Position numbers and translations under genes: made by a program. From assembly GCA_902517795.1 (NCBI GenBank), contig CABYDR010000012.1, positions 1 to 35,326 of the forward strand: a stretch of 35,326 bases of DNA. The letters are read 5' to 3'. This document shows positions 3,402 through 31,045 of the stretch, in pieces. This DNA comes from an uncultured Woeseiaceae bacterium (GTDB taxonomy: Bacteria > Pseudomonadota > Gammaproteobacteria > Steroidobacterales > Woeseiaceae). Under the pieces are notes generated by a model. That model ran no database searches, was not told where the DNA came from, and saw only the letters and a program-made list of their open reading frames with translations. How positions within the stretch are numbered: position 1 is the first letter of the stretch; every line of letters begins with the position of its first letter.

Positions 3402-4547
3402 ATGAAAAAATTTACTCCTTATATAAGCATTGGCTCCCGCGTTAGGAAATCTCCGTACTTTGAATCAACCAAGAGATGTGGTGCAAAAGCCTTTTCAATC
3501 TATAATCATATGTATATGCCAACTTTATACACCAGTGTGGTTGATGAGTATTGGAGCATGGTAAATGATGTGGTCATGATTGATGTTGGTGTTGAAAGGC
3601 AAATTGAAATCAAAGGGGCCGATGCACACAAGTTAGTTCAATTTATTACCCCGAGAGATGTATCCACTTGTGATTTAGGAAAATGTTATTACATTTTATT
3701 GACGGGTGAGGACGGCGGCATCGTCAATGATGCTGTATTGCTGAGATTAAGCGAAGATCAATTCTGGGTTTCTCCGGGAGACGGTGATGTTCTGCTCTGG
3801 ATTCAGGGCATAGCTATAAATTCAGGAATGGATGTTGAGATTTTCGAGCCAGACGTATCACCACTGCAGATGGGGGGTCCTAAATCACCACACGTAATGC
3901 GAGAATTATTTGGGGATCTTGCTATTGATCTAGGGTACTATCGCGCTGAGCAAACTGAAGTCAACGGCATACCACTTGTATTAGGCAGAACTGGTTGGAG
4001 CGGTGAAATCAGCTATGAGCTTTATTTACAAGATGGAACAAGAGGTAATGAGCTCTGGGAGCTGATTGAAAGCGCGGGAGAAAAATACAACATCAAGCCA
4101 GCTGCCCCACAATTAATTAGGAGCATTGAGGGGGGTATATTGTCCTATGCCTCTGATATAAGCAGACAAGATAATCCTTTTACGATAGGTTTGGATAGAT
4201 TAGTTAATCTTGATAGTGAGGATGACTTTATCGGTAAAGAAGCATTGAAGAAAATTAAGGCAGAGGGCACAAAACGAAAACTGGTTGGAATTTTTCTTGA
4301 TGGCGATCAAATTAATTCACCTCCAGAGCATTTGTGGACAGTAATGGATGGGGATGTTCCAGTTGGACATGTCACCAGATGTATTCATTCTCCCAGGCTT
4401 GAAAGAAATATTGGATTTGCAAATGTACCTGCTGAAAATTCTCAAATAGGCACTCAGTTAAAGATCGATTCACCTCAAGGAGTTCTGAATGCAACCGTTT
4501 GTGAAAATTCGTGGTTCCCAGCAGAAATTAAAATCTCATTAGATTAA
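3402..4547 (+). CDS. DmdA-related GcvT-family (aminomethyltransferase-like) protein
   Basis: A 381-residue tetrahydrofolate-type methyltransferase of the glycine-cleavage T-protein family, in the clade that contains the DMSP demethylase DmdA. Seen: SPYFEST, YNHMYMP, VERQIEIKGADAHKLVQFITPRDVS, GKCYYILLTGEDGGIVNDAV, DVLLW and EPDVSPLQ in the first half, and FIGKEAL in the C-terminal barrel domain. These motifs match DmdA in order and spacing. However, the middle reads RTGWSGEISYELYL, as in the broad DmdA-like clade of non-marine bacteria, whereas SAR11 DmdA as I recall it has a GYSKQGGYE-type motif. The substrate is therefore open: DMSP, another methylated sulfur or nitrogen compound, or sarcosine-like compounds. 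It is a single gene, divergent from the amidohydrolase and convergent on fadN with 9 bases between. There is no clear ribosome binding site before the ATG. Confidence 0.8.
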   Translation: MKKFTPYISIGSRVRKSPYFESTKRCGAKAFSIYNHMYMPTLYTSVVDEYWSMVNDVVMIDVGVERQIEIKGADAHKLVQFITPRDVSTCDLGKCYYILLTGEDGGIVNDAVLLRLSEDQFWVSPGDGDVLLWIQGIAINSGMDVEIFEPDVSPLQMGGPKSPHVMRELFGDLAIDLGYYRAEQTEVNGIPLVLGRTGWSGEISYELYLQDGTRGNELWELIESAGEKYNIKPAAPQLIRSIEGGILSYASDISRQDNPFTIGLDRLVNLDSEDDFIGKEALKKIKAEGTKRKLVGIFLDGDQINSPPEHLWTVMDGDVPVGHVTRCIHSPRLERNIGFANVPAENSQIGTQLKIDSPQGVLNATVCENSWFPAEIKISLD

Positions 4548-4556
4548 TAAAAAATC

Positions 4557-6881
4557 TTAATTTCGAAGCGGCTTTCCATAAGCCAACATATGCTTGATAC
4601 GCTCTTTTGTTTCTTTTGTTTTTGCTAGCGAGAGAAATGCTTTTCTCTCAAGTCCAAAGATATCATCTTCATTCATGATGGTGCCATCGTCTATGTCACC
4701 TCCAGTTACAATCATAGCAATTTGTGTTCCTGTAGTAACATCATGAGGCGTCAGGAATCCTTTTTTATGAGTATCCATTAACCACTTCTTCATTTTTTCC
4801 CAAATATCTCTGCCTGGCATTGACAAGTCGCCCCTATATGTAGGACTGTAATTATCTTTTAAATGGTCTACTTTTATTATGGCCTTGTCTAAGAGCCTGT
4901 CTCTATTCATTACAAATTCATCTCTGCCCTCAATAAACATTGCAAGTTCTTGGCCTTGAAGTGGAGATTGAGCGGTTTTTCCATAACCAATATTCATGAA
5001 GGTTTTCCATGCGGCTTCGCTTTCATTCTTTTTAATATCAAACCATCTATACAATATTTCCTTCACTCCGCCACCACCAGGAACAACCCCCACTAAGGAT
5101 TCGACAAGACCCGTTACAGAGTTAGCGTGATAAATCGATGCATCGGTATGCAATACAACCTCAAATCCTCCGCCAATAGAGAGGCCAGAAGGAGCTGAAA
5201 CAACAGGTATGCTTGAATACTTCATTTTTTTAACGGTTTTTTGAAAATGCTCTAGAAAAGCATCCAGTCCATCCCAATCACATACCTCAATATAATCCGC
5301 GATGCGTTCTAAGTTAACGCCACATGAAAAATGACTGGCATCATTGTGAATAACCATGCCTCGATGATTGGTTTCACTGTGATCGATTGCATCACTCAGC
5401 AGCCTCATGGATTCATCATCTAGTGCATTGGCTTTGCTATGAAATTCAACCATGCCTATGTCGTCATTGATTTCGAAGAAACTGGCAACTTTATTTGAGA
5501 AAAGAGGTTTTTTTGTTCGTCTTTCTTCAGAGAACCTTCTGGTTCCCTCCTCTCTTTTTAGATTTTTATATTCACCTGTTGCCAATAAATACTGAAGTTT
5601 ATTATCTTCGATTCTATAAAATGATTTGTTTCTAGCAACATGTAAAATTTTTGGAATACTTCTGTTTTCTTTTTCCAATCTTTTAATAAAATTATTTACG
5701 CCGATGGAGTCAATCATCTCGAACGGTCCCTGTATCCAGTTGTATCCCAGTTTCATGGCATCATCAATGGCTACCAATGACTCATTAACCTCTGGAACCA
5801 AAACAGCGGCATAGCACAGTGAATTTGATAAAACTTCCCATGCATAACGACCATACTTATCGTCACTCTCAAGCAGAAGTGTAAAATCATTTTCCATTTC
5901 AGCTTGAACAGCAATTTCAGGTTTTGAATAATTGTATTTACGATAAACGAATTTATTAAAATCAAGGGTTTCTCTTGTAGTGCTATCCTCTGGATCTTTA
6001 AATCGATAGAATCCGCCTTTTGTAGACTTATTTCCTAGCAATCCCTCATCCATCATTTTTCTCATGGAGGGTATTTCATCTGAAACCTCATGAAATACAT
6101 CGTTCTTTGGAAGGATATTTATCAAGCTCTTTGCCACATCGCTCATCAAATCTATGCCAATTAGATCGTATAAACCAAAAACACCTGTTTTTGGAATGCC
6201 CATCGGCCTCCCAAATATTGCATCGGCTTCTTCTGGTTCCAAATTCATTTCGAAGGCTTTATGCAATGCCGTTTGTATGGCAAATACGCCGACACGGTTA
6301 CCCAAAAAACCCGGTGTATCATTACAAAGAACAATTCCTTTGCCCATCTCTTTCTCATTAAATTTTGATAAACATTTGATAACTTCTGGTTTGGTTGATT
6401 CTCCTTTTACAACTTCAAGTAATTGCATATATCGCACTGGATTAAAATAATGCGTTATAGCGAACTCTTCTTTGAAACTTTCTGTCATGCCTTCAACCAA
6501 TAATGAAATTGGAATAGTTGAAGTATTGGATGAAACCATGGAGCCTTTTTTTCTGATCCGATCAATTGTTCTGTATAAGTCCTTTTTAATATCTAAGCGC
6601 TCCACGACCGCTTCAGCTATCCAGTCAGATTCAGATATTTTCTCTATGTCATCTTCAATATTCCCAATGGAAATTCTATTGAGAATATCCTTGTGAAGAA
6701 GTCCAGGCTGCTGCTCATCAAGTAGTCTTTCAATGGCTCTCTCGCAGATAGCATTTCTGTTACCCTCATTGCTGGGTAAATCCAATAAGAGCACATCAAT
6801 CCCAGCATTCGCTAGTTGTCCTGCAATCCCAAGACCCATTGTTCCTGCGCCTATGACAGACGCTTTTTTTATTTGATACAT
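4557..6881 (-). CDS. fadN: 3-hydroxyacyl-CoA dehydrogenase / enoyl-CoA hydratase fusion, FadN type
   Basis: A 774-residue bifunctional beta-oxidation enzyme: enoyl-CoA hydration and NAD-dependent oxidation of 3-hydroxyacyl-CoA. The dehydrogenase comes first: a Rossmann motif GAGTMGLGIAGQLANAG at residues 10-26, HYFNPVRYMQLLEVV near 145, and NRVGVFAIQTAL near 195. A second dehydrogenase C-terminal repeat (EVNESLVAIDDAMKLGYNWIQGPFEMID) lies near 365. The hydratase/crotonase part follows from about 470, with SCGVNLERI, GLSIGGGFEVVLH and VESLVGVVPGGGG. This order, dehydrogenase before hydratase, is that of Bacillus FadN and unlike E. coli FadB/FadJ. No thiolase or acyl-CoA dehydrogenase gene is adjacent. 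The start is 4 bases after the hydrolase stop, with AGGA 6 bases upstream of the ATG, so the two are probably co-translated. Confidence 0.88.
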   Translation of the reverse strand: MYQIKKASVIGAGTMGLGIAGQLANAGIDVLLLDLPSNEGNRNAICERAIERLLDEQQPGLLHKDILNRISIGNIEDDIEKISESDWIAEAVVERLDIKKDLYRTIDRIRKKGSMVSSNTSTIPISLLVEGMTESFKEEFAITHYFNPVRYMQLLEVVKGESTKPEVIKCLSKFNEKEMGKGIVLCNDTPGFLGNRVGVFAIQTALHKAFEMNLEPEEADAIFGRPMGIPKTGVFGLYDLIGIDLMSDVAKSLINILPKNDVFHEVSDEIPSMRKMMDEGLLGNKSTKGGFYRFKDPEDSTTRETLDFNKFVYRKYNYSKPEIAVQAEMENDFTLLLESDDKYGRYAWEVLSNSLCYAAVLVPEVNESLVAIDDAMKLGYNWIQGPFEMIDSIGVNNFIKRLEKENRSIPKILHVARNKSFYRIEDNKLQYLLATGEYKNLKREEGTRRFSEERRTKKPLFSNKVASFFEINDDIGMVEFHSKANALDDESMRLLSDAIDHSETNHRGMVIHNDASHFSCGVNLERIADYIEVCDWDGLDAFLEHFQKTVKKMKYSSIPVVSAPSGLSIGGGFEVVLHTDASIYHANSVTGLVESLVGVVPGGGGVKEILYRWFDIKKNESEAAWKTFMNIGYGKTAQSPLQGQELAMFIEGRDEFVMNRDRLLDKAIIKVDHLKDNYSPTYRGDLSMPGRDIWEKMKKWLMDTHKKGFLTPHDVTTGTQIAMIVTGGDIDDGTIMNEDDIFGLERKAFLSLAKTKETKERIKHMLAYGKPLRN

Positions 6882-18371: not shown

Positions 18372-19157
18372 TCATGCAATTGATTGAGCTGCCTCATCCC
18401 CCCTTCTGAGCATTTCTCCAGCTAAAGCCAGATAAGCAACTGCGCCTCTAGACTTTCTGTCGTGAATGAGAACTGGTTTACCAAAGCTTGGTGCTTCAGC
18501 CAATGTTACATTTCTTGGAACCATGGTCCGAAATACTTTATCGCCAAAATGTTTTATCAGTTGCTCTGATACCTCATCGGATAGGTTCACCCTCTGATCA
18601 ACCATTGTCCTAAGCAGGCCAAATATTTCTAAATTTGGATTTACGGTCATTTTAATTTGCTCAATTGTGTTAATCAAAGAACTCAATCCTTCCAATGCAT
18701 AATATTCACACTGCATGGGAATAAGCACACCATCCGATGCTGTAAGTGCATTTACAGTGAGCATGTTGATAGAAGGAGGACAATCAATAAGAATATAATC
18801 GTAATTAGTTTTAATATCTTGCAGGGCGTTTCGAAGCTTCATCTCTCTTCCAATTTCCTGCATCAGCTTTACTTCTGAAAGAGTGAGCTCCTCATTACCA
18901 GGTAAAATATCAAAGTGACACTCTGGTACAGGCAATATCACTTCAGCGGGCGTCTTTTTTCCCAATAAAACATCGCATGCAGTTATATCAAGTGAATTTT
19001 TTTCAATACCACAACCCATGGTTGCATTACCCTGAGGATCCATGTCAATTAGTAAAACTTTTCTCTTTGTCGCAGCGAGAGAAGCGGCCAAATTGACGCA
19101 CGTAGTTGTTTTTCCCACGCCACCTTTCTGATTTGCTATTGATATAACCTTGATCAC
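18372..19157 (-). CDS. parA: chromosome partitioning ATPase ParA (Soj)
   Basis: A 261-residue deviant Walker ATPase that binds the nucleoid and moves ParB-parS complexes. The motif KGGVGKTTT is at residues 11-19 with the signature Lys, followed by DMDPQGNAT near 40 and the Walker B region YILIDCPPSINMLTVNAL near 120. There is no N-terminal DNA-binding extension, which marks it as the short chromosomal type. The ATG overlaps the rsmG stop by 4 bases. Confidence 0.97.
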   Translation of the reverse strand: MIKVISIANQKGGVGKTTTCVNLAASLAATKRKVLLIDMDPQGNATMGCGIEKNSLDITACDVLLGKKTPAEVILPVPECHFDILPGNEELTLSEVKLMQEIGREMKLRNALQDIKTNYDYILIDCPPSINMLTVNALTASDGVLIPMQCEYYALEGLSSLINTIEQIKMTVNPNLEIFGLLRTMVDQRVNLSDEVSEQLIKHFGDKVFRTMVPRNVTLAEAPSFGKPVLIHDRKSRGAVAYLALAGEMLRRGDEAAQSIA

Positions 19158-19801
19158 AATTTTGAGCCTTCTTTTTTATGTAACAGTATAATATGGCGTT
19201 GTTTGTCAGACATGCTTTCTACAGAAACCTCTCTCACATCTGTTATCCACGAATCATTTAGTAGCTTCAGTTCATCACTTGGATGTTTTCCTTTCATCGA
19301 GATTAAGACCCCTTCCTCTTTCAGTAAATGTTGAGATAATTTTATCAAGTTAGGGAGACTTGATAATGCCCTTGCAATTACAGTATCAAACACTTGATGT
19401 GGAAAAAAGTTTTCTATTCGAATTTTTTTTGTTTTTACATTCTTAATTTCTAAAAGATTAATTATATGATTGATAAATCCAATTTTTTTCCCATTGCTAT
19501 CCACCAATAAATAATTAACATTCTGATTTATTATCGCTAAAGGAAGGCCAGGAAAGCCTGCGCCTGTACCAATGTCAACAACTGAGTCTCCTTTAATATA
19601 TGGGTGAGCAGACAAACTGTCCATGAGATGGCCGGATATCATATCATCAACGTTTCGAATTGAAGTTAAATTGAACTTTTGGTTCCACTTATGCAACTCG
19701 TTAAGTAAAACAATAAATTGATCTATATTTTTATTAGAAATACTTTCGGAAACATTGCCTGCTATATTTATAATCTTAGATTTAAGATAATCTTTACTCA
19801 T
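19154..19801 (-). CDS. rsmG: 16S rRNA (guanine527-N7)-methyltransferase RsmG (GidB)
   Basis: A 215-residue SAM-dependent enzyme that methylates G527 of 16S rRNA. Seen: LHKWNQKFNLTSIR near residue 40 and the SAM-binding motif VVDIGTGAGFPGLPLAI near 75, then LLVDSNGKKIGFINHI and VIARALSSLPNLI. A GTG one codon upstream (19804) is possible, but the ATG at 19801 is preferred; no good ribosome binding site decides it. It usually follows mnmG directly, but here five metabolic genes lie between. It overlaps parA, as is common. Confidence 0.95.
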   Translation of the reverse strand: MSKDYLKSKIINIAGNVSESISNKNIDQFIVLLNELHKWNQKFNLTSIRNVDDMISGHLMDSLSAHPYIKGDSVVDIGTGAGFPGLPLAIINQNVNYLLVDSNGKKIGFINHIINLLEIKNVKTKKIRIENFFPHQVFDTVIARALSSLPNLIKLSQHLLKEEGVLISMKGKHPSDELKLLNDSWITDVREVSVESMSDKQRHIILLHKKEGSKL

Positions 19802-19862
19802 CACATCTAAAATTTAACGAAGAATAGATAAAAAAACCCATTTTTAATTGTTCACTTGTCAT

Positions 19863-21311
19863 TTAGAGGACTAGCAAAGACATAAACTCATCGACATCGG
19901 TTGAATTTAATTGTTCTCTATTTGGGCATAAGCTGCTCAATTTGTCCCACTGACTTTCATGTAATTTGTCCTGGATACTCGTCTCAAATTTTTTCTTGAG
20001 GATTGGAATGCCTTCCTTTCTTCTCTCTTTATGGCCAACCGGATAATCAATTGAAACTTTATCGGTTTTTGTTCCATCATTAAATTCTATTTGTATAGAG
20101 TTTCCAATGTACCTTTTACTCGGGTCGAAATAATCTTTCGTAAATGTATAATTTTCTTTTACATGCATTTTAGCCCTCAGCACATCAATTCTTGGATCAT
20201 CAGCAATTTTATCCTCGTAGTCAGAGGCTGTCAGGCGCCCGAAAATCAATGGAATAGCAACCATATATTGTAGACAATGATCACGGTCAGCTGGATTATC
20301 TAAGGGGCCAGTTTTGTCGATAATTCTTACTCCAGCTTCTTGAGTTTCGATTTGTACTGACTTAATAGTATTAAGCCTGTGTTTCACTGAACCATGTAAT
20401 TGCATTGCTGCTTCTACTGCCGTTTGGGCATGAAATTCGGCTGGATATGATATTTTAAACAAAATATTTTCCATCACATACGAACCAAACTCTTGATTGA
20501 TATTTACGCGGTTTCCCTTAAATAGGACATCATGGAACCCCCAGGTCTTTGCAGTCAATGCAGTTGGATAGCCCATTTCATTTTTCATGGAAATATATGC
20601 AAGGCGCATTGCACGGCTTGTAGCATCGCCAGCTGCCCAGCTTTTCCTTGAGCCTGTGTTAGGTGCATGTCTGTATGTTCTCAGTGCACCACCATCAATG
20701 AATGCATTAGAAACAGCATTAATTATTTGCTCTTTGGTCCCTCCTAACATGCCAGTTAAAACTGCTGTAGAAGCAACTCTCACGAGAAGAACATGATCAA
20801 GCCCAACTCGATTAAAGCTGTTTTCTATCGCCAAGACGCCCTGTATTTCATGCGCTCTTATCATGGCTGACAATATGTCTTTTACTTTAAGAGGCGTTTT
20901 TCCTGTCATTCTTGCTTGACGGCTCAAGTAGTCTGATAGAGCTAAGATGCCTCCCAAATTGTCTGAGGGGTGGCCCCATTCTGCAGCTAACCAAGTATCA
21001 TTAAAATCGAGCCACCTAACCATAGCACCAATATTAAAAGCAGCCATTACCGGGTCTAATTCGAAGGAGGTTCCAGGAATTCTCGCGCCACCTCGCAATG
21101 TTGCTCCTGGCACTACTGGGCCAAGCAGCTTTGTACAAGCAGAATAATCTAGCGCTTGAAACCCGCAAGCAAGTGTATCCATCAAACAATAGTGCGCTGT
21201 TTCATATGCTAAATCAGAGTGCTCATCATTTGAGAGCACGTAATCTGCAATCCTTATGAGCAGATCATCTGGTTCTCTTCTCACAGCGGAGCGAATATCA
21301 TCAGTTGTCAT
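19863..21311 (-). CDS. prpD: 2-methylcitrate dehydratase PrpD
   Basis: A 482-residue cofactor-free dehydratase of the MmgE/PrpD family, converting 2-methylcitrate to 2-methylaconitate and, in the PrpD type, acting within the methylcitrate cycle. Seen: YCLMDTLACGFQAL near residue 41, MVRWLDFNDTWLAAEWGHPSDNLGGILAL near 97, AHEIQGVLAIENSFNRVGLDHV, the TGSRKSWAAGDATSRAMRLA block near 222, and AKTWGFHDVLF. Length matches E. coli PrpD (483). The ATG has GGAG 5 bases upstream. It is the last gene of the prpB-prpC-prpD run. No AcnD/PrpF pair is present, consistent with PrpD doing the step. Confidence 0.95.
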   Translation of the reverse strand: MTTDDIRSAVRREPDDLLIRIADYVLSNDEHSDLAYETAHYCLMDTLACGFQALDYSACTKLLGPVVPGATLRGGARIPGTSFELDPVMAAFNIGAMVRWLDFNDTWLAAEWGHPSDNLGGILALSDYLSRQARMTGKTPLKVKDILSAMIRAHEIQGVLAIENSFNRVGLDHVLLVRVASTAVLTGMLGGTKEQIINAVSNAFIDGGALRTYRHAPNTGSRKSWAAGDATSRAMRLAYISMKNEMGYPTALTAKTWGFHDVLFKGNRVNINQEFGSYVMENILFKISYPAEFHAQTAVEAAMQLHGSVKHRLNTIKSVQIETQEAGVRIIDKTGPLDNPADRDHCLQYMVAIPLIFGRLTASDYEDKIADDPRIDVLRAKMHVKENYTFTKDYFDPSKRYIGNSIQIEFNDGTKTDKVSIDYPVGHKERRKEGIPILKKKFETSIQDKLHESQWDKLSSLCPNREQLNSTDVDEFMSLLVL

Positions 21312-21339
21312 GATTTCTCCGTTTCAATCATTATTAAAT

Positions 21340-21357
21340 TATTTAGATTATTTAGAT
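21340..21357. repeat. two 9-bp tandem copies of TATTTAGAT between prpC and prpD
   Basis: TATTTAGAT occurs twice without a gap immediately after the prpC stop. It may be simple AT-rich slippage; no function is suggested. Confidence 0.4.
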
Positions 21358-22467
21358 TTATGAATTCCATTTCTTCAAGCTCGGGCCAACGTACTCTGCT
21401 GCAGGCCTTATAAGTTTATTATTTTTTCTCTGCTCCATTGCATGTGCGGCCCAACCTGTAATGCGAGAACAAACAAATATTGGTGTAAATAAATAAGTTG
21501 GAACACCCATAAAATGATAAACGCTCGCCGCATAAAAGTCGGCATTGGCAAATAATTTTTTCTTTTCCCACATTGTTTTTTCGATCGCTTCAGATATGTC
21601 ATAAAGTTGGCTATCACCATATTCTTGAGCGAGAATTTTCGACATTTTTTTATTAACACTATTGCGTGGATCAGAAGTTGTATAAACACGATGACCAAAT
21701 CCCATGATTTTTTCTTTTTTTGCTAGCATTCGTGCTATTCCATCAATAGCCTCTTCTGGGGTATCAAAACTTTCGATTAATTCCATTGCAGCTTCATTCG
21801 CACCACCATGTAAGTTGCCACGGAGGGCCCCAATTGCTCCCGTTATTGCTGAATGCATATCAGAAAGTGTGGCTGTAATTACTCTGCCAGTAAATGTTGA
21901 AGCATTAAATTCGTGTTCAGCGTAGAGTATCAGGGTCGTATCTAGTGTCTTTCTGTGTAATTCCGAGGGCGCTCTATCATGCAATAAATGAAGAAAATGT
22001 CCGGATATGCTGTCCTCATTTGTTGCTAGATTTATTCGTACTCCATCAACATGAAAACGGTGCCAGTATAAGAGAATTGATGGCAAGCAAGACAGAAGTC
22101 TGTCTGCAGCCTCTTCTTGATTTGAAAAATCCCTCTCTTCTGGCTCAAAGTTACCAAGAAAAGATACGCCTGTTCTTAGAACATCCATAGGGTGTGTATT
22201 TCTTGGAATCATCTCCAGTACCGTTTTTAATTCACTCGGAAGATCCCTCATTAATTTTATTCGCTTAATGTAATCATCTAGTTCATTCTTATTGGGAGGT
22301 TTGCCTCTCAATAACAAGTATGCAACTTCTTCAAAACTAGCATTATCCACTAGATCGTATATGTCATAACCACGATATGTTAATCCTGCGCCCTCTTTTC
22401 CTACTGTGCATAGTGACGTTTCACCAGCATTTATGCCTGCTAATCCACCGGTTTTAGTGTTGTCCAT
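21358..22467 (-). CDS. prpC: 2-methylcitrate synthase PrpC
   Basis: A 369-residue citrate-synthase-fold enzyme condensing propionyl-CoA with oxaloacetate. The short length and the N-terminus GGLAGINAGETSLCTVGKEG...LTYRGYDI mark the PrpC class rather than the longer hexameric GltA. The catalytic residues are visible: His in NLHGGANEAAM near 218, His in MGFGHRVYTTSDPR near 256, Asp in NADFYAASVYHFMG near 310. The C-terminus AEYVGPSLKKWNS fits. GAGGAAG precedes the ATG at 22467. It lies 8 bases after prpB. Confidence 0.95.
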   Translation of the reverse strand: MDNTKTGGLAGINAGETSLCTVGKEGAGLTYRGYDIYDLVDNASFEEVAYLLLRGKPPNKNELDDYIKRIKLMRDLPSELKTVLEMIPRNTHPMDVLRTGVSFLGNFEPEERDFSNQEEAADRLLSCLPSILLYWHRFHVDGVRINLATNEDSISGHFLHLLHDRAPSELHRKTLDTTLILYAEHEFNASTFTGRVITATLSDMHSAITGAIGALRGNLHGGANEAAMELIESFDTPEEAIDGIARMLAKKEKIMGFGHRVYTTSDPRNSVNKKMSKILAQEYGDSQLYDISEAIEKTMWEKKKLFANADFYAASVYHFMGVPTYLFTPIFVCSRITGWAAHAMEQRKNNKLIRPAAEYVGPSLKKWNS

Positions 22468-22475
22468 ATCTTCCT

Positions 22476-23351
22476 CTATTTATCTCTTTGTTTTTTTTTA
22501 CTAAGAATTTTATCTACCTTTTCTTCATAAACTTCATAGTTCAGTGTTTTATAAAGAGCTGTCCTTGTTTGCATGTTTTCTATTTGATTTTTTTGTGTCC
22601 CTTCTTGCTTTATTGCCTCGTAAGTTTTCATTGCAGCATTTGCCATTGAACGTGCAGCGGATAGAGGATATAAAATAATTTTTACACCCGCACCTCTCAT
22701 CTCTTCAACTGAATATAATGGCGTCATACCAAATTCAGTTAAATTGGCTAGAACAGGCACATTAATTGAATCAGTAAAAGTTTTATATTGATCCAGGTCT
22801 GTTAGCGCTTCAGCAAATATAATATCGGCGCCAGAATTAATATATGTTCTTGCTCTATCGATTGATTTTTCCAGTCCTTCCGCTGCAAGAGCGTCTGTCC
22901 TAACAATGATTGTGAAGTCATCATCTCTGGCGTCAACTGCCGCTTTGATTCTGTCGTTCATTTCATTTACAGAAACAATCTCTTTGCCAGGTCTATGGCC
23001 GCATCTTTTTGAAGCAATTTGATCTTCAATGTGGCAACCACTTGCCCCAGCTTTTTTCATTTCTTTCACAGTTCTTGCCACCATGAATGCATTGCCCCAT
23101 CCTGTATCTGCATCCGCTATTAGAGGCAAATCACATGAATATGAAATTCGTCTAATGTCTTCACAAACATCGTTTAAAGTAGTCATCGCCAAATCAGGCA
23201 GACCAAGTGAGTGGTTGGCAACACCTGCTCCTGAAAGATATATTGCTTTAAAACCAGCATTTTTTGCTAACAAAGCGCTATAAGCATTAATTGTTCCAAC
23301 CATCTGAAGTGGCTGTTCATCCCTCATAGCTTGTTGTAGCATTTTGTTCAC
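22476..23351 (-). CDS. prpB: 2-methylisocitrate lyase PrpB
   Basis: A 291-residue TIM-barrel lyase of the isocitrate lyase/PEP mutase family, splitting 2-methylisocitrate into pyruvate and succinate. Seen: LSGAGVANHSLGLPDLAMTTL, LIADADTGWGNAFMVARTVKEM with metal-binding Asp, the active-site loop SKRCGHRPGKE near residue 115, and IVRTDALAAEGLEKSIDRA. The start is GTG at 23351: AGGA stands 6 bases upstream, whereas the ATG three codons inside (23342) would be too far from it. It is the first prp gene, 29 bases after the acuI-like gene. Confidence 0.95.
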   Translation of the reverse strand: MNKMLQQAMRDEQPLQMVGTINAYSALLAKNAGFKAIYLSGAGVANHSLGLPDLAMTTLNDVCEDIRRISYSCDLPLIADADTGWGNAFMVARTVKEMKKAGASGCHIEDQIASKRCGHRPGKEIVSVNEMNDRIKAAVDARDDDFTIIVRTDALAAEGLEKSIDRARTYINSGADIIFAEALTDLDQYKTFTDSINVPVLANLTEFGMTPLYSVEEMRGAGVKIILYPLSAARSMANAAMKTYEAIKQEGTQKNQIENMQTRTALYKTLNYEVYEEKVDKILSKKKQRDK

Positions 23352-23380
23352 TTCTTATCCTTTTCTTTTTTTTTTAAATA

Positions 23381-24370
23381 TTATTGAATTTTAACTACAA
23401 GCCTACCTCTTATATTACCTTCAATAAAATTATTGAATTGATCTGGCAGCTCATCGAATTCAATATGGTTTGGTGCGATTGTTTCCAGGTTTTTTGGTAA
23501 CAAATCTGTCCCAATTCTTTGCCAAACAATTTTTCTTAACTCCTTTGGGGTATCGACCGAATTTATTCCTAACAAATTTACAGCCCTCAAAATGAGCGGC
23601 ATAACTGTCGTTTCAAGCTTATGACTTGCTGCTAATCCAATTGAAGCAATATTTCCTCCGTAACGAGTTGTTTTCATTAGCCAAGACAAAACGTCTCCAC
23701 CTAAATTATCAATAGCGCCGCCCCATTTGGCTTTTTCTAGTGGTCTTTTCCCACAATCAAGATCCTGTCTAATGAGAATTTCATTAGCTCCAATGGAATG
23801 CAAAAAATCAGCTTGATCTTTTTTTCCTGTCAGCGCAATAACTTCATAACCCTTCTTGGCAAGCATATCAATTGCGATGCTTCCTACACCACCAGTTGCC
23901 CCTGAAACGAGAATTGGCCCTTTTTCAGGATGTTGCCCATTGAGTTCCATTTGGTGAATAGCTAATGCAGCAGTGTAACCAGCAGTTCCAATTTGCATGG
24001 CTTTATGACAATCAATATTTTCTGGCAGTTTCACAATTAGCTCTGCGGGCATTCTGGCATATTCTGTGTATCCACCATCACGAACTTCGCTCAAACCACA
24101 GCCATTTACTACTACTGTATCCCCTTTCTTAAGTGATGTTGAAGAAGTGTTTACAATTACTCCAGATAGGTCAATTCCTCCAATTAAAGGAAATTTTCTG
24201 AGAATTTTTCCTTTACCTGTAGCAGCTAATGCATCTTTGTAATTTATTGTGGAATGTGTAACTTTTATAATCGTATCGCCTTCTGACAGGTCATCCAATT
24301 CAAGATCGCAAAATCTAGTAGAAATTTTTTCTTGTTTATTATCAATTTGAAAGGCACGAAATTTTTTCAT
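23381..24370 (-). CDS. acuI: acrylyl-CoA reductase (NADPH), AcuI/YhdH family
   Basis: A 329-residue medium-chain dehydrogenase/reductase without zinc ligands. AcuI/YhdH enzymes reduce acrylyl-CoA to propionyl-CoA with NADPH, which detoxifies acrylate. Seen: STINYKDALAATGKGKILRKFPLIGGIDLSG at 40-70, the AcuI-type GGYTEYARMPAELIVKLP near 108, the nucleotide-binding motif SGATGGVGSIAIDMLAKKGYEVIALTGK near 156, and the C-terminus GRLVVKIQ. AGAGGA precedes the ATG. It stands immediately upstream of the methylcitrate genes, which consume propionyl-CoA, so the neighbourhood supports the assignment over a generic quinone reductase. Confidence 0.85.
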   Translation of the reverse strand: MKKFRAFQIDNKQEKISTRFCDLELDDLSEGDTIIKVTHSTINYKDALAATGKGKILRKFPLIGGIDLSGVIVNTSSTSLKKGDTVVVNGCGLSEVRDGGYTEYARMPAELIVKLPENIDCHKAMQIGTAGYTAALAIHQMELNGQHPEKGPILVSGATGGVGSIAIDMLAKKGYEVIALTGKKDQADFLHSIGANEILIRQDLDCGKRPLEKAKWGGAIDNLGGDVLSWLMKTTRYGGNIASIGLAASHKLETTVMPLILRAVNLLGINSVDTPKELRKIVWQRIGTDLLPKNLETIAPNHIEFDELPDQFNNFIEGNIRGRLVVKIQ

Positions 24371-24384
24371 TTTATCCTCTAAGT

Positions 24385-25329
24385 TTAGTGATTTTTTGAA
24401 AGCCAGTAATTCAATCCTGCAGCGTTTACGTATAAGTCTGTTTGTATAAAATTGTTTAACTTTTCCTCAATGTTACTGCAACCGTGTTCGAATAATTTAT
24501 TTTTTATATGCTCTTGAAGCGAGGAGTGAATAGATTGAAGTGTATCTTCCTCATTTGCATTTTTTTCAGCAATATCTACAAACTCATCAATAAATTTATG
24601 CAATACTGCCCCAATCTTTTCTATCTCATCTAACTGGCCAAAGTGAGCCGCGTAAATATATTTGGGTCGATATCCTATAATGGAATCAATTGAATTATGT
24701 GCTTCATCAGGATCAAATTGATTTGGTGATGTGATTGGTATACTTATCTTTCCATTAATAGAATCAAATTCTCTAAATGACATTCCAAAATTATCCCCAG
24801 AGAATACTGAGTTTGATATTTCATCAAAGATACAATAATGATGCTTAGCGTGACCTTCTGTAAAAAAAAGCTCGAATCTTCTATCTGATAGGTAGATTTC
24901 ATCTTTATCAGACGGAACGAATATTCTTTTCTCATCTATGGGAATAATTTCTCCGAACAAATGATCAAATAGATTTTTTCCATAGACTCTAACCGAGCTC
25001 TCTATAAGTTTTGATGGATTGATCATATGTTCCGCACCCTTAGGGTGGACAACAAGCTTTGCATTAGGAAGGAGTTTAATTAGCTTGCCCGCTCCTCCAG
25101 CATGATCCAAATGAACGTGTGTCAAGAAAATATACTTTACATCGGCATTATCAAGATTATTTTCTCTTAAAGAATTTTCAAGGATGTTAACGTTGTTCGA
25201 TGTGCCAACATCAATAAACGCTGCTTCACCATTTTGTAGAATCAGATGACTGGCATTGTATTGCGGTCTTACGAAATTTGTGTCGACGGTAATTATGCCG
25301 TTATCATTGATTATATTTTGTTTAGACAT
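24385..25329 (-). CDS. metallo-beta-lactamase-fold hydrolase, substrate unknown
   Basis: A 314-residue MBL-fold enzyme. The metal motif THVHLDHAGG is near residue 71, further ligands are likely His in TEGHAKHHYCIFD near 160 and Asp in VFSGDNFGM near 178, and YAAHFGQ near 230 supplies the last His. The dinuclear-metal set is complete. About 80 C-terminal residues, helical and charged, end in NAAGLNYWLSK, as in the glyoxalase II-like thioesterase branch. The ATG at 25329 is chosen over a TTG two codons upstream; both lie within 10 bases of the mnmG stop, without a strong ribosome binding site. Its place ahead of acuI and prpBCD suggests acyl-thioester hydrolysis (inference). Confidence 0.8.
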   Translation of the reverse strand: MSKQNIINDNGIITVDTNFVRPQYNASHLILQNGEAAFIDVGTSNNVNILENSLRENNLDNADVKYIFLTHVHLDHAGGAGKLIKLLPNAKLVVHPKGAEHMINPSKLIESSVRVYGKNLFDHLFGEIIPIDEKRIFVPSDKDEIYLSDRRFELFFTEGHAKHHYCIFDEISNSVFSGDNFGMSFREFDSINGKISIPITSPNQFDPDEAHNSIDSIIGYRPKYIYAAHFGQLDEIEKIGAVLHKFIDEFVDIAEKNANEEDTLQSIHSSLQEHIKNKLFEHGCSNIEEKLNNFIQTDLYVNAAGLNYWLSKNH

Positions 25330-25338
25330 AATCAAAGA

Positions 25339-27246
25339 TCAGGCAATTTTTTTATTGTTTTTTTTGAGATAAAGCAGCAACAATGAGAGAGTCGCTGGCG
25401 TTATTCCCTCTATTCTAGATGCTTGGCCAAGTGATTGTGGGAGAGTCTCCTGTAATTTTTGAATGGCTTCGTTCGATAGTCCATGTACACGAGAATAATC
25501 AATATCTCGGGGTAACATGAGGGATTCATTTTTTTCCAGTTTAAGTATTTCTTTTTCTTGTCGCTTTATGTAACCGGAGTATTTTGCTCTGGTTTCTAGT
25601 TGTGACTTGATTTGCTCTCTTTGTTCATCACTAAAATCATATGTGTTCCAATCTATTGGGCCAACAGTTGAGAGCGAAGTAACTATATCATGAGAGTATT
25701 CGGGTCTTTTTAACAGAGTTGCTGCATCGGTTTCTTTTTTATATTCACGGCCTAATATTTTTTTATCATCAGAAGTTAGTTTTTCTTTTGATAAAAATAT
25801 TGATTCTAGACGTAATTGCTCCTTATGAACAACATCCATTTTGTTGCTGAATGTTTCCCATCTTTGGTCATCAATCAGCCCCAGTTCGCGGCCTATTGGA
25901 GTCATTCTTTGGTCGGCGTTATCCTCTCTTAACAAAAGCCGATATTCTGCTCTGCTCGTAAACATCCTATATGGTTCACTTACGCCCCTTGAAGTTAAAT
26001 CATCAACCAAGACACCCATATACGAATTTTGTCTTGTAGGAACCCATTCATCCAATTTAAGCGAATATCTATGAGCATTTATCCCGGCAATTAAACCTTG
26101 AGCTGCCGCTTCTTCATATCCGGTTGTTCCATTTATTTGGCCTGCAAAAAATAAGCCTGATACTTTAATGGTTTCCAATGAAGGTCTTAATTCTCGAGGA
26201 TCGACAAAATCATATTCGATTGCATAGCCAAACTGGGTAATTTCAGCGTTTTCAAAACCAATAATTGATCTGACAAACTCAGTCTGAACTTCTCTTGGTA
26301 GGCTGGTAGATATCCCATTTGGATAAATTATTTTAGATTTAATTCCCTCTGGCTCTACGAATATCTGATGAGACTCTTTATTGGCAAAACGAACAATCTT
26401 ATCTTCAATGGAAGGACAATATCTAGGCCCAACGGATTCGATCACACCACTATATATAGGTGACGTATGGAGGGCTTCTGATATTATTTGATGGGTTTTC
26501 TTTGTTGTTTTGGTTATAAAGCAATTTAGTTGTTCAGGATGTTCTATTCTGGCACCCATAAATGAAAATACTGGCCTAGGATCATCGCCTGGTTGTTTCT
26601 GCATCTTTCTGTAATTTAAGCTATTCTTATCAAGTCTTGGTGGGGTGCCTGTTTTTAGTCTGCCAACCTTAAATGATAATGCCCTAATATTATTTGCTAG
26701 GTTGTTAGATGGCCTGTCGCCGATTCTCCCTCCTTCCTCTGAGTGATCACCAAATAAAATTTTTCCCGCTAAGAAAGTGCCTGTGGTGAGCACGACGCTC
26801 TTGGCAATGAATTTACCACTTTTTTTTGTTTGTACGCCTGTAATAATGTCTTTTTCGATGAGCAGCGAATCAACTGTCTCTTCAAGAAATGAGAGATTAT
26901 TCTGGTTTTTTAACAGCATGCTGACCGCGGCTTTGTATAGTGTTCTATCTGCCTGAGCTCTTGTTGCACGAACAGCGGGCCCCTTGCTTGCATTCAGGAC
27001 CCTAAAATGAATTCCAGCTTGATCAATTGCTTTAGCCATAATTCCTCCTAAAGCATCAATCTCTTTTGTAAGATGACCTTTTCCAATACCACCAACGGCT
27101 GGATTACAGCTCATTTCACCGATGGCTGATAATTTTTGAGTGATTAATAGAACCTTTGATCCAGCTCTAGCTGCAGCAGATGCCGCTTCTGTTCCCGCAT
27201 GACCGCCACCAATAATTATGACATCGTAACTATTATTTTGTTTCAT
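25339..27246 (-). CDS. mnmG: tRNA uridine-34 5-carboxymethylaminomethyl synthesis enzyme MnmG (GidA)
   Basis: A 635-residue FAD enzyme that works with MnmE on U34 of tRNAs. The FAD-binding motif GGGHAGTEAASAAARAG is at about 12-28, then MSCNPAVGGIGKGHLTKEIDALGG near 46 with one active Cys, GTFLAGKILFGDH near 157, RLKTGTPPRLD near 205, and YCPSIEDKIVRF near 279 with the second Cys. The C-terminal helical domain includes GYIKRQEKEILKLEKNE. Length fits the family (about 629). It follows mnmE by 51 bases; the usual next gene, rsmG, is displaced by about 5.5 kb. Confidence 0.97.
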   Translation of the reverse strand: MKQNNSYDVIIIGGGHAGTEAASAAARAGSKVLLITQKLSAIGEMSCNPAVGGIGKGHLTKEIDALGGIMAKAIDQAGIHFRVLNASKGPAVRATRAQADRTLYKAAVSMLLKNQNNLSFLEETVDSLLIEKDIITGVQTKKSGKFIAKSVVLTTGTFLAGKILFGDHSEEGGRIGDRPSNNLANNIRALSFKVGRLKTGTPPRLDKNSLNYRKMQKQPGDDPRPVFSFMGARIEHPEQLNCFITKTTKKTHQIISEALHTSPIYSGVIESVGPRYCPSIEDKIVRFANKESHQIFVEPEGIKSKIIYPNGISTSLPREVQTEFVRSIIGFENAEITQFGYAIEYDFVDPRELRPSLETIKVSGLFFAGQINGTTGYEEAAAQGLIAGINAHRYSLKLDEWVPTRQNSYMGVLVDDLTSRGVSEPYRMFTSRAEYRLLLREDNADQRMTPIGRELGLIDDQRWETFSNKMDVVHKEQLRLESIFLSKEKLTSDDKKILGREYKKETDAATLLKRPEYSHDIVTSLSTVGPIDWNTYDFSDEQREQIKSQLETRAKYSGYIKRQEKEILKLEKNESLMLPRDIDYSRVHGLSNEAIQKLQETLPQSLGQASRIEGITPATLSLLLLYLKKNNKKIA

Positions 27247-27297
27247 GGCAGTATATTAATCGAAAAATGCTTATGTATACATATTTAAAGAATATTC

Positions 27298-30755: not shown

Positions 30756-30896
30756 TTAGTGTGACGGTGAAAGCTGGATGCGTCCTTTAGCTCTTCTTCT
30801 GTTTATTACTGCCCTTCCTGCTTTTGTGGACATTCTAGATCTAAACCCATGAGTTCGAGCTCTTTTCAGGTTGCTTGGTTGGAATGTTCTTTTCAT
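30756..30896 (-). CDS. rpmH: 50S ribosomal protein L34
   Basis: A 46-residue, very basic ribosomal protein read on the minus strand from the ATG at 30896 to TAA at 30756. The sequence begins [18 protein letters not shown] and continues through [19 protein letters not shown] to LSPSH. It is the normal first gene of the rpmH-rnpA-yidC run, next to dnaA. AGGGC lies just upstream of the ATG. Confidence 0.98.
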
Positions 30897-31016: not shown

Positions 31017-31045
31017 TTGGACCTGTGGATAACTTTTAATATAAA
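31017..31045 (+). promoter_or_regulatory. probable dnaA promoter
   Basis: TTGGAC (31017-31022) and TATAAA (31040-31045) are 17 bases apart, and a further TATAAT lies at 31047-31052 without a good -35. The perfect DnaA box lies in the spacer. No clear ribosome binding site stands before the dnaA ATG. Confidence 0.45.
31024..31032 (-). promoter_or_regulatory. perfect DnaA box upstream of dnaA
   Basis: TGTGGATAA on the plus strand is TTATCCACA on the minus strand, an exact match to the strong DnaA box. It lies 51 bases before the dnaA start and within the proposed promoter, so DnaA could repress its own gene. Confidence 0.8.

Follow-up and report, generated by a model that had tools for sequence, protein, structure and literature searches.

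Genes of the mnmG–rsmG interval and their conservation

The window analysed here is a stretch of 35,326 nucleotides, contig C12 of a 1.27 Mb genome (65.6% complete) of an uncultured Woeseiaceae bacterium. Between the tRNA-modification gene mnmG and the 16S rRNA methyltransferase gene rsmG it carries five genes, all on the minus strand. The open reading frame (ORF) calls give the order mnmG–MBL–acuI–prpB–prpC–prpD–rsmG (Table 1), with successive gaps of 3, 14, 29, 8, 46 and 58 bp. An earlier note on this DNA had described these five same-strand genes as a propionate/acrylate cassette inserted between mnmG and rsmG, and had suggested that it may be transcribed from the housekeeping operon next to the replication origin, with constitutive and gene-dosage-linked expression. 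The gene order itself is real, as judged from the ORFs and the profile cut-offs they pass.

PrpB, PrpC and PrpD are orthologues of 2-methylcitrate cycle enzymes and score over the curated cut-offs. PrpB carries the KRCGH motif and aligns to a solved 2-methylisocitrate lyase, PrpC aligns to solved relatives, and the solved relatives of PrpD are PrpD 1szq and 5mvi. Among the matches listed, which may omit very near records, the best named relatives of PrpD belong to the Woeseiaceae: metagenome-assembled genome (MAG) ANT-115 (76%), MAG Ww312 (75%) and AG-313-J15 (75%). The name acuI holds for the subfamily, whose model TIGR02823 is the only one passed, but not for the AcuI equivalog NF051456 (349 against a cut-off of 440); solved relatives of this protein are 1xa0, YhfP (1tt7) and AcuI (5gxe/5gxf). 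The MBL-fold protein matches at the family level only, with no specific assignment, and 3adr (E 7.7e-12) is its single solved relative at E 1e-5. Its ORF starts with TTG; an in-frame ATG at 25329 matches the end given in the earlier note.

Table 1. Features of the mnmG–rsmG interval and the head of the surrounding gene run (scores are given against model cut-offs)
Feature	Position	Strand	Evidence or remark
rpmH, 46 aa, head of the close-packed run rpmH-rnpA-yidC-mnmE-mnmG-...-rsmG-parA-parB	30756–30896	-	TIGR01030 85 vs 37.7
mnmE–mnmG gap with -10-like hexamer directly upstream of mnmG	27247–27297	-	weak; consensus and eye only
mnmG, tRNA-modification gene, upstream end of interval	25339–27246	-	NCBIfam TIGR00136 858 bits vs 525
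MBL-fold metallo-hydrolase	24385–25335	-	Pfam PF00753 87 bits; THVHLDH = HxHxDH motif, by eye
acuI/yhdH-type acrylyl-CoA reductase family gene	23381–24370	-	TIGR02823 416 vs 297
acuI–prpB gap, 29 bp, lacking the 33-nt promoter-like element and palindrome of relatives	23352–23380	-	
prpB, methylisocitrate lyase	22476–23351	-	NF008455 457 vs 353; TIGR02317 402 vs 354
prpC, 2-methylcitrate synthase	21358–22467	-	NF009006 586.5 vs 550
prpD, 2-methylcitrate dehydratase	19863–21311	-	NF006943 816 vs 575; TIGR02330 780 vs 458
rsmG, 16S rRNA methyltransferase, downstream end of interval	19154–19804	-	TIGR00138 169 vs 99.5

The spacing of mnmG and rsmG on one contig and strand could be scored in 80 of 147 genomes of the order and, with the same exclusion criteria, in 107 of 182 genomes of the class outside it, lower-scoring genomes being left out. 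Dropped were cases with the genes on different contigs or opposite strands, one gene missing, rsmG upstream of mnmG, or a distance above 40 kb. The two genes lie less than 400 bp apart in 76 of the 107 genomes elsewhere in the class, but in none of the 80 of the order, where a single genome (G145, 1.3 kb) has them within 4 kb. The statement that they usually adjoin in gammaproteobacteria is therefore correct outside the order and wrong within it. Instead, prpD is found between them in 34 of the 80 genomes, including 19 of 21 in the family, and eight further genomes (G018, G025, G047, G054, G057, G080, G091 and G141) have prpD just upstream of rsmG with mnmG not nearby on the contig. Outside the order, prpD lies within 20 kb of rsmG in at least one genome (G290, 16.5 kb). 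In the genus, mnmG was found in seven of nine genomes, and all seven show the identical order mnmG-MBL-acuI-prpB-prpC-prpD-rsmG. What the earlier note named as refuting its reading, the same gene order found broadly in the taxonomic order, is thus largely observed, and the word "inserted" is not supported for the cassette.

Family members outside the genus have a longer interval, typically mnmG-oppABC(DF)-DUF945(divergent)-cytochrome c-MBL-acuI-prpBCD-S9 peptidase-rsmG, with variations. Genes of the opp type occur in 18 of 19 such fetched intervals (L057–L075), the exception being G145, and at least one is present in 16 of 20 selected intervals from other families (L161–L180). An OppB relative was detected in just two of the nine genus genomes, where it is weak and located elsewhere. 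The five genes are thus most likely what genome reduction has left, in condensed form, of an old catabolic island, and not a recent insertion. They are clearly under purifying selection: against G147, the ratio of nonsynonymous to synonymous substitution rates (dN/dS) is 0.07 for prpD, 0.11 for prpC, 0.16 for prpB, 0.07 for acuI and 0.11 for the MBL gene, next to 0.10 for mnmG.

Three other arrangements were seen. In G145 (L057), a second small genome of 1.5 Mb, only acuI remains between mnmG and rsmG, and island erosion may have occurred more than once. In family f6, mnmG and rsmG are divergently adjacent with no island between them in three genomes (G034, which is L180, G020 and G045). Salinisphaera sp. 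Q1T1-3 (L119) has the order acuI-prpC-...-prpD-625 aa-rsmG-parA-parB, which places prp genes beside rsmG in apparently another lineage.

Promoter-like element and palindrome at prpB

The acuI–prpB gap is 29 bp in the window, 19 bp in G147 and 33 bp in G149. The remaining four members of the genus have gaps of 123-132 bp, and where acuI adjoins prpB in family members outside the genus (nine fetched intervals) the range is 103-255 bp. Most of the long gaps contain a recurrent 33-nt element, ATTTGGGAA-N14-GTTTAGAAT, which can be read as a -35 box TTGGGA, an 18-nt spacer and a -10 box TAGAAT. A weight matrix for this element was trained on 8 of 22 family loci outside the genus (L059–L063, L065–L075, L077, L080, L083–L086) and applied with a threshold of 30 bits to at most 200 nt upstream of prpB. 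L064, which has the exact element, was omitted, its fetched stretch not reaching prpB, and L078 and L082 as repeats of G090 and G072; L080 and L083 (labelled Gammaproteobacteria) and L084 (Proteobacteria UBA1847) were counted as Woeseiaceae on 72% PrpD identity and their gene map. The element exceeds the threshold in 20 of the 22 loci, 8 used in training and 12 independent. Genus members G096, G153 and G152 reach 27.0, 29.0 and 29.1 bits, and two of eight prpB loci of other families also have the element (L169, 26.9 bits; L170, 32.6 bits).

Over the 400 nt that precede prpB, the best scores of the window (-6.0 bits), G147 (-9.0 bits) and G149 (-3.6 bits) fall inside the shuffled range, and the best match anywhere in the window (12.7 bits) is about 11 kb from prpB. 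The exact pattern does not occur in the window; it was found a single time in each of 20 loci out of 223, several of which are overlapping copies of one place. With up to three mismatches, the window contains three matches, none upstream of prpB, a number reached by 14 of 100 shuffles. In a tree of MnmG and AcuI, the window's genome (G000), G147 and G149 group together with support 1.0; the sister of this clade comprises G096, G151, G152 and G153 (0.998).

Downstream of the promoter-like element, a palindrome, TTTTAATCnnGATTAAAA (at most two mismatches), is present in 20 of the 22 family loci; the misses are G129 and L083. At prpB it is found in none of the seven genus members. Genome-wide, 12 selected relatives have two sites (ten genomes) or three (two genomes), against 0-2 in each for the palindrome read backwards. 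Each of the 12 has one site at prpB. Ten of them (L211–L216, L218–L220 and L222, near position 4100–4600) have another between icmF and a TetR-family gene that diverges from it, and a site stands directly upstream of ilvE in three, G101, G035 and G056 (L217, L221 and L223), of which G056 has all three kinds; G035 has a third site as well. The name IcmF was taken from one protein (1673 against a cut-off of 1500), TetR family from three and ilvE from one, the rest being assigned by tblastn. The palindrome may thus be the operator-like site of a candidate branched-chain/propionate regulon comprising the TetR-family gene, icmF, ilvE and prpBCD. In seven AT-rich genus genomes, palindrome sites are not above the control (42 against 41, forward). 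PF01642 mutases are absent from all nine genus genomes, two of which are more than 90% complete, and icmF therefore appears to be gone from the genus.

Two Ectothiorhodospiraceae MAGs (L111:2795 and L120:2911) also have a relative of the promoter-like element (15 and 24 bits), some 65 nt ahead of acuI-prpB-prpC; the prp promoter element may predate the order. Genes of 145 aa (G072) and 129 aa (G133) that diverge from prpB were considered as prp regulators and rejected, as they match the S4 domain.

Probable loss of regulation, or a promoter elsewhere

Our preferred explanation, which we regard as probable overall, starts from the gene order, the conservation series, the absence of the two elements and the purifying selection observed above. 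The ancestral Woeseiaceae-type state would be a prpBCD operon whose promoter-like element functions as its own promoter and whose palindrome functions as an operator, shared with the TetR/icmF locus or with ilvE. During genome reduction in the genus, the opp, DUF945, cytochrome c and S9 genes would have been lost from the interval, bringing MBL-acuI up against mnmG. The genus would also have lost the palindromic operator, and the window's clade would then have lost the prp promoter as well. From there on, transcription of prpBCD would most likely rely on read-through, starting at mnmG or at a promoter further upstream, and would respond little or not at all to substrate.

Several observations are consistent with this explanation. 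A promoter-like element of their own in the relatives and its absence here, the pattern expected of promoter capture, is what sequence conservation displays, and both the element and the palindrome are missing from the acuI–prpB gap, one of the places where the earlier note had suggested looking for a promoter. Because both are gone and the gap has shrunk to 19-33 bp, prpBCD most likely depend on read-through. Terminator-like sites between 18300 and 31200 number 7, no more than chance would give (8.4 expected), in keeping with the earlier remark that no terminators are evident between the genes. Since a -10-like hexamer stands directly upstream of mnmG, as inspection by eye suggests for the genus and for most of the family members displayed, the mnmG gap may tentatively be taken, on a consensus reading, as the nearest candidate start. 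The proposal that the cassette is transcribed from the housekeeping operon thus finds support as a derived state, given the loss of element and palindrome in the window and its two nearest relatives, the short gaps and the lack of any outstanding terminator. A broader proposition is about evenly balanced in our judgement: that in this small-genome clade propionyl-CoA disposal has left a TetR-type regulon (prpB, icmF, ilvE) as operator and promoter were lost in turn, and that its enzymes, encoded under mnmG beside the origin in the rpmH-to-parB run, would now be made in step with housekeeping functions. The genomes form a readable series, from an island with promoter and operator through promoter only to neither, with each state assigned to a genome. 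Such a series suggests a path by which genome reduction could turn a regulated catabolic operon into one that is carried along, constitutively expressed, in a housekeeping operon.

Some results weigh against this explanation. G129 lacks both the element (best 4.4 bits) and the palindrome, L083 lacks the palindrome, and G137 scores only 13.8 bits for the element, although in the right place and with the palindrome present. The element was not found in six of the eight fetched prpB loci of other families and is not an order-wide feature. In G151, outside the window's clade, it is degraded (5.1 bits, in the shuffled range) with the gap still at 123 bp, so that element loss was possibly not a single event; the simplest reading is one loss in the window's clade and a separate decay in G151. 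The window's genome is incomplete, as given above, and two of the nine genus genomes gave no mnmG. A new promoter may also have arisen within acuI or the MBL gene in such AT-rich DNA, where a scan for promoter-like sites is uninformative (39 found, 42 expected).

In the strongest rival, prpBCD are still separately regulated from a private promoter of the cassette that has shifted position or changed too far to be recognised, and that may lie, for instance, inside acuI or upstream of the MBL gene. The decay of the element in G151 despite its 123-bp gap indicates that promoters can turn over here, and promoter-like strings are plentiful in the AT-rich region. We nevertheless consider a private promoter unlikely, as in the window, G147 and G149 no element match in the 400 nt before prpB rises above shuffled sequence, the acuI–prpB gaps of this clade are very short, and the palindrome is missing at prpB throughout the genus members scored. 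Slightly less likely still is neutral drift of gene packing without functional consequence, prp expression being low and irrelevant in the lineage. Other gaps are indeed shorter too (mnmE–mnmG, 51 bp in the window against 81 bp in G096; prpD–rsmG, 58 against 150 bp), but the seven genus members scored retain all five genes and lack the island neighbours, and the cassette dN/dS of 0.07-0.16 speaks against irrelevance. Recent insertion of a foreign propionate/acrylate cassette, which the adjacency of mnmG and rsmG in most scorable genomes outside the order might suggest, is refuted by the gene maps and has next to no probability, since these genes are shared at this position by members of the genus, of the family and of several families in the order.

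Propionyl-CoA metabolism, known systems and the origin-proximal setting

Among the propionyl-CoA routes tested, the 2-methylcitrate cycle is the sole one found, no mutase having been detected. The window's genome encodes an AcnA aconitase elsewhere (TIGR01341, 1368 against 945; the AcnD model is not reached, 835 against 1420), which can supply the missing step of the cycle; its second PF00330 match is LeuC. In the genus, PF00330 matches of aconitase length (frames of 890-955 aa) occur in seven of nine genomes, and G149 and G153 have only LeuC-length ones. Counting PF00330 matches as aconitase in all nine was rejected because this model also catches LeuC. No PrpE propionyl-CoA synthetase is among the five genes, the search for it being confined to the locus. 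The acuI-family enzyme could feed propionyl-CoA to the three cycle enzymes and, by family resemblance, would add acrylyl-CoA as a source. An aminomethyltransferase-fold protein resembling DmdA (3402–4547, plus strand; best solved relative 3tfh) scores 363.6, below the cut-off of 410 for the dimethylsulfoniopropionate (DMSP) demethylase; DMSP lyases were not searched for, and a link to DMSP is not claimed.

The window resembles a 2-methylcitrate cycle operon in having prpB, prpC and prpD in order, with AcnA encoded elsewhere. It differs in that its five genes include neither prpE nor a prp regulator, in the acuI-family and MBL genes ahead of prpB, in its placement between mnmG and rsmG and in the missing promoter element. 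An acuI-family gene upstream of prp genes is shared with the Ectothiorhodospiraceae MAGs L111 and L120 and with Salinisphaera (L119), although the window's protein falls below the AcuI equivalog cut-off. Propionate genes are, in the account of PMC3223726, controlled by a Fis-family PrpR in Enterobacteria, and a GntR-family PrpR is predicted in Shewanella. For betaproteobacteria, PMC5343134 describes TetR-family control of branched-chain amino acid use by LiuQ. The Woeseiaceae are similar in the metabolic theme and in having a TetR-family gene beside a branched-chain acyl-CoA gene, but their palindrome lies at icmF, ilvE and prpB.

According to PMC12175321, Woeseiaceae genomes measure 1.7 +/- 0.7 Mb in the water column and 3.1 +/- 0.8 Mb in sediment, a contrast between planktonic and benthic members that resembles the one among the genomes here. 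The terms "propion" and "methylcitrate" do not occur in the main text of PMC12175321, PMC7082342 or PMC7451513. In a mostly open-access literature search, no description was found of prp genes in an mnmG–rsmG (gidA/gidB) arrangement, nor anything joining acuI, methylcitrate and acrylate, or isobutyryl-CoA mutase, methylcitrate and TetR. The candidate regulon of TetR, icmF, ilvE and prpBCD, in a widespread marine family, was likewise not found described in the literature searched.

The interval belongs to a close-packed run in which the largest gap from rpmH to parB is 58 bp (rpmH–rnpA, 43 bp). NCBIfam cut-offs are passed by dnaA, dnaN, recF, rpmH, rnpA, yidC and mnmE; ParA matches at the family level only, below its equivalog cut-off. 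Because perfect DnaA boxes occur at 31024, 32452 and 32550, around dnaA, and the GC skew changes sign near 30 kb of the window, oriC is probably near the window's dnaA, and the description of the cassette as lying next to the origin is supported. The accompanying suggestion of a gene-dosage effect is doubtful: such an effect requires overlapping rounds of replication, which are themselves doubtful for a small-genome marine lineage. At the start of the contig (39–1823, plus strand), a 594-aa ORF, possibly truncated by the contig end, has no Pfam match at E 0.001.

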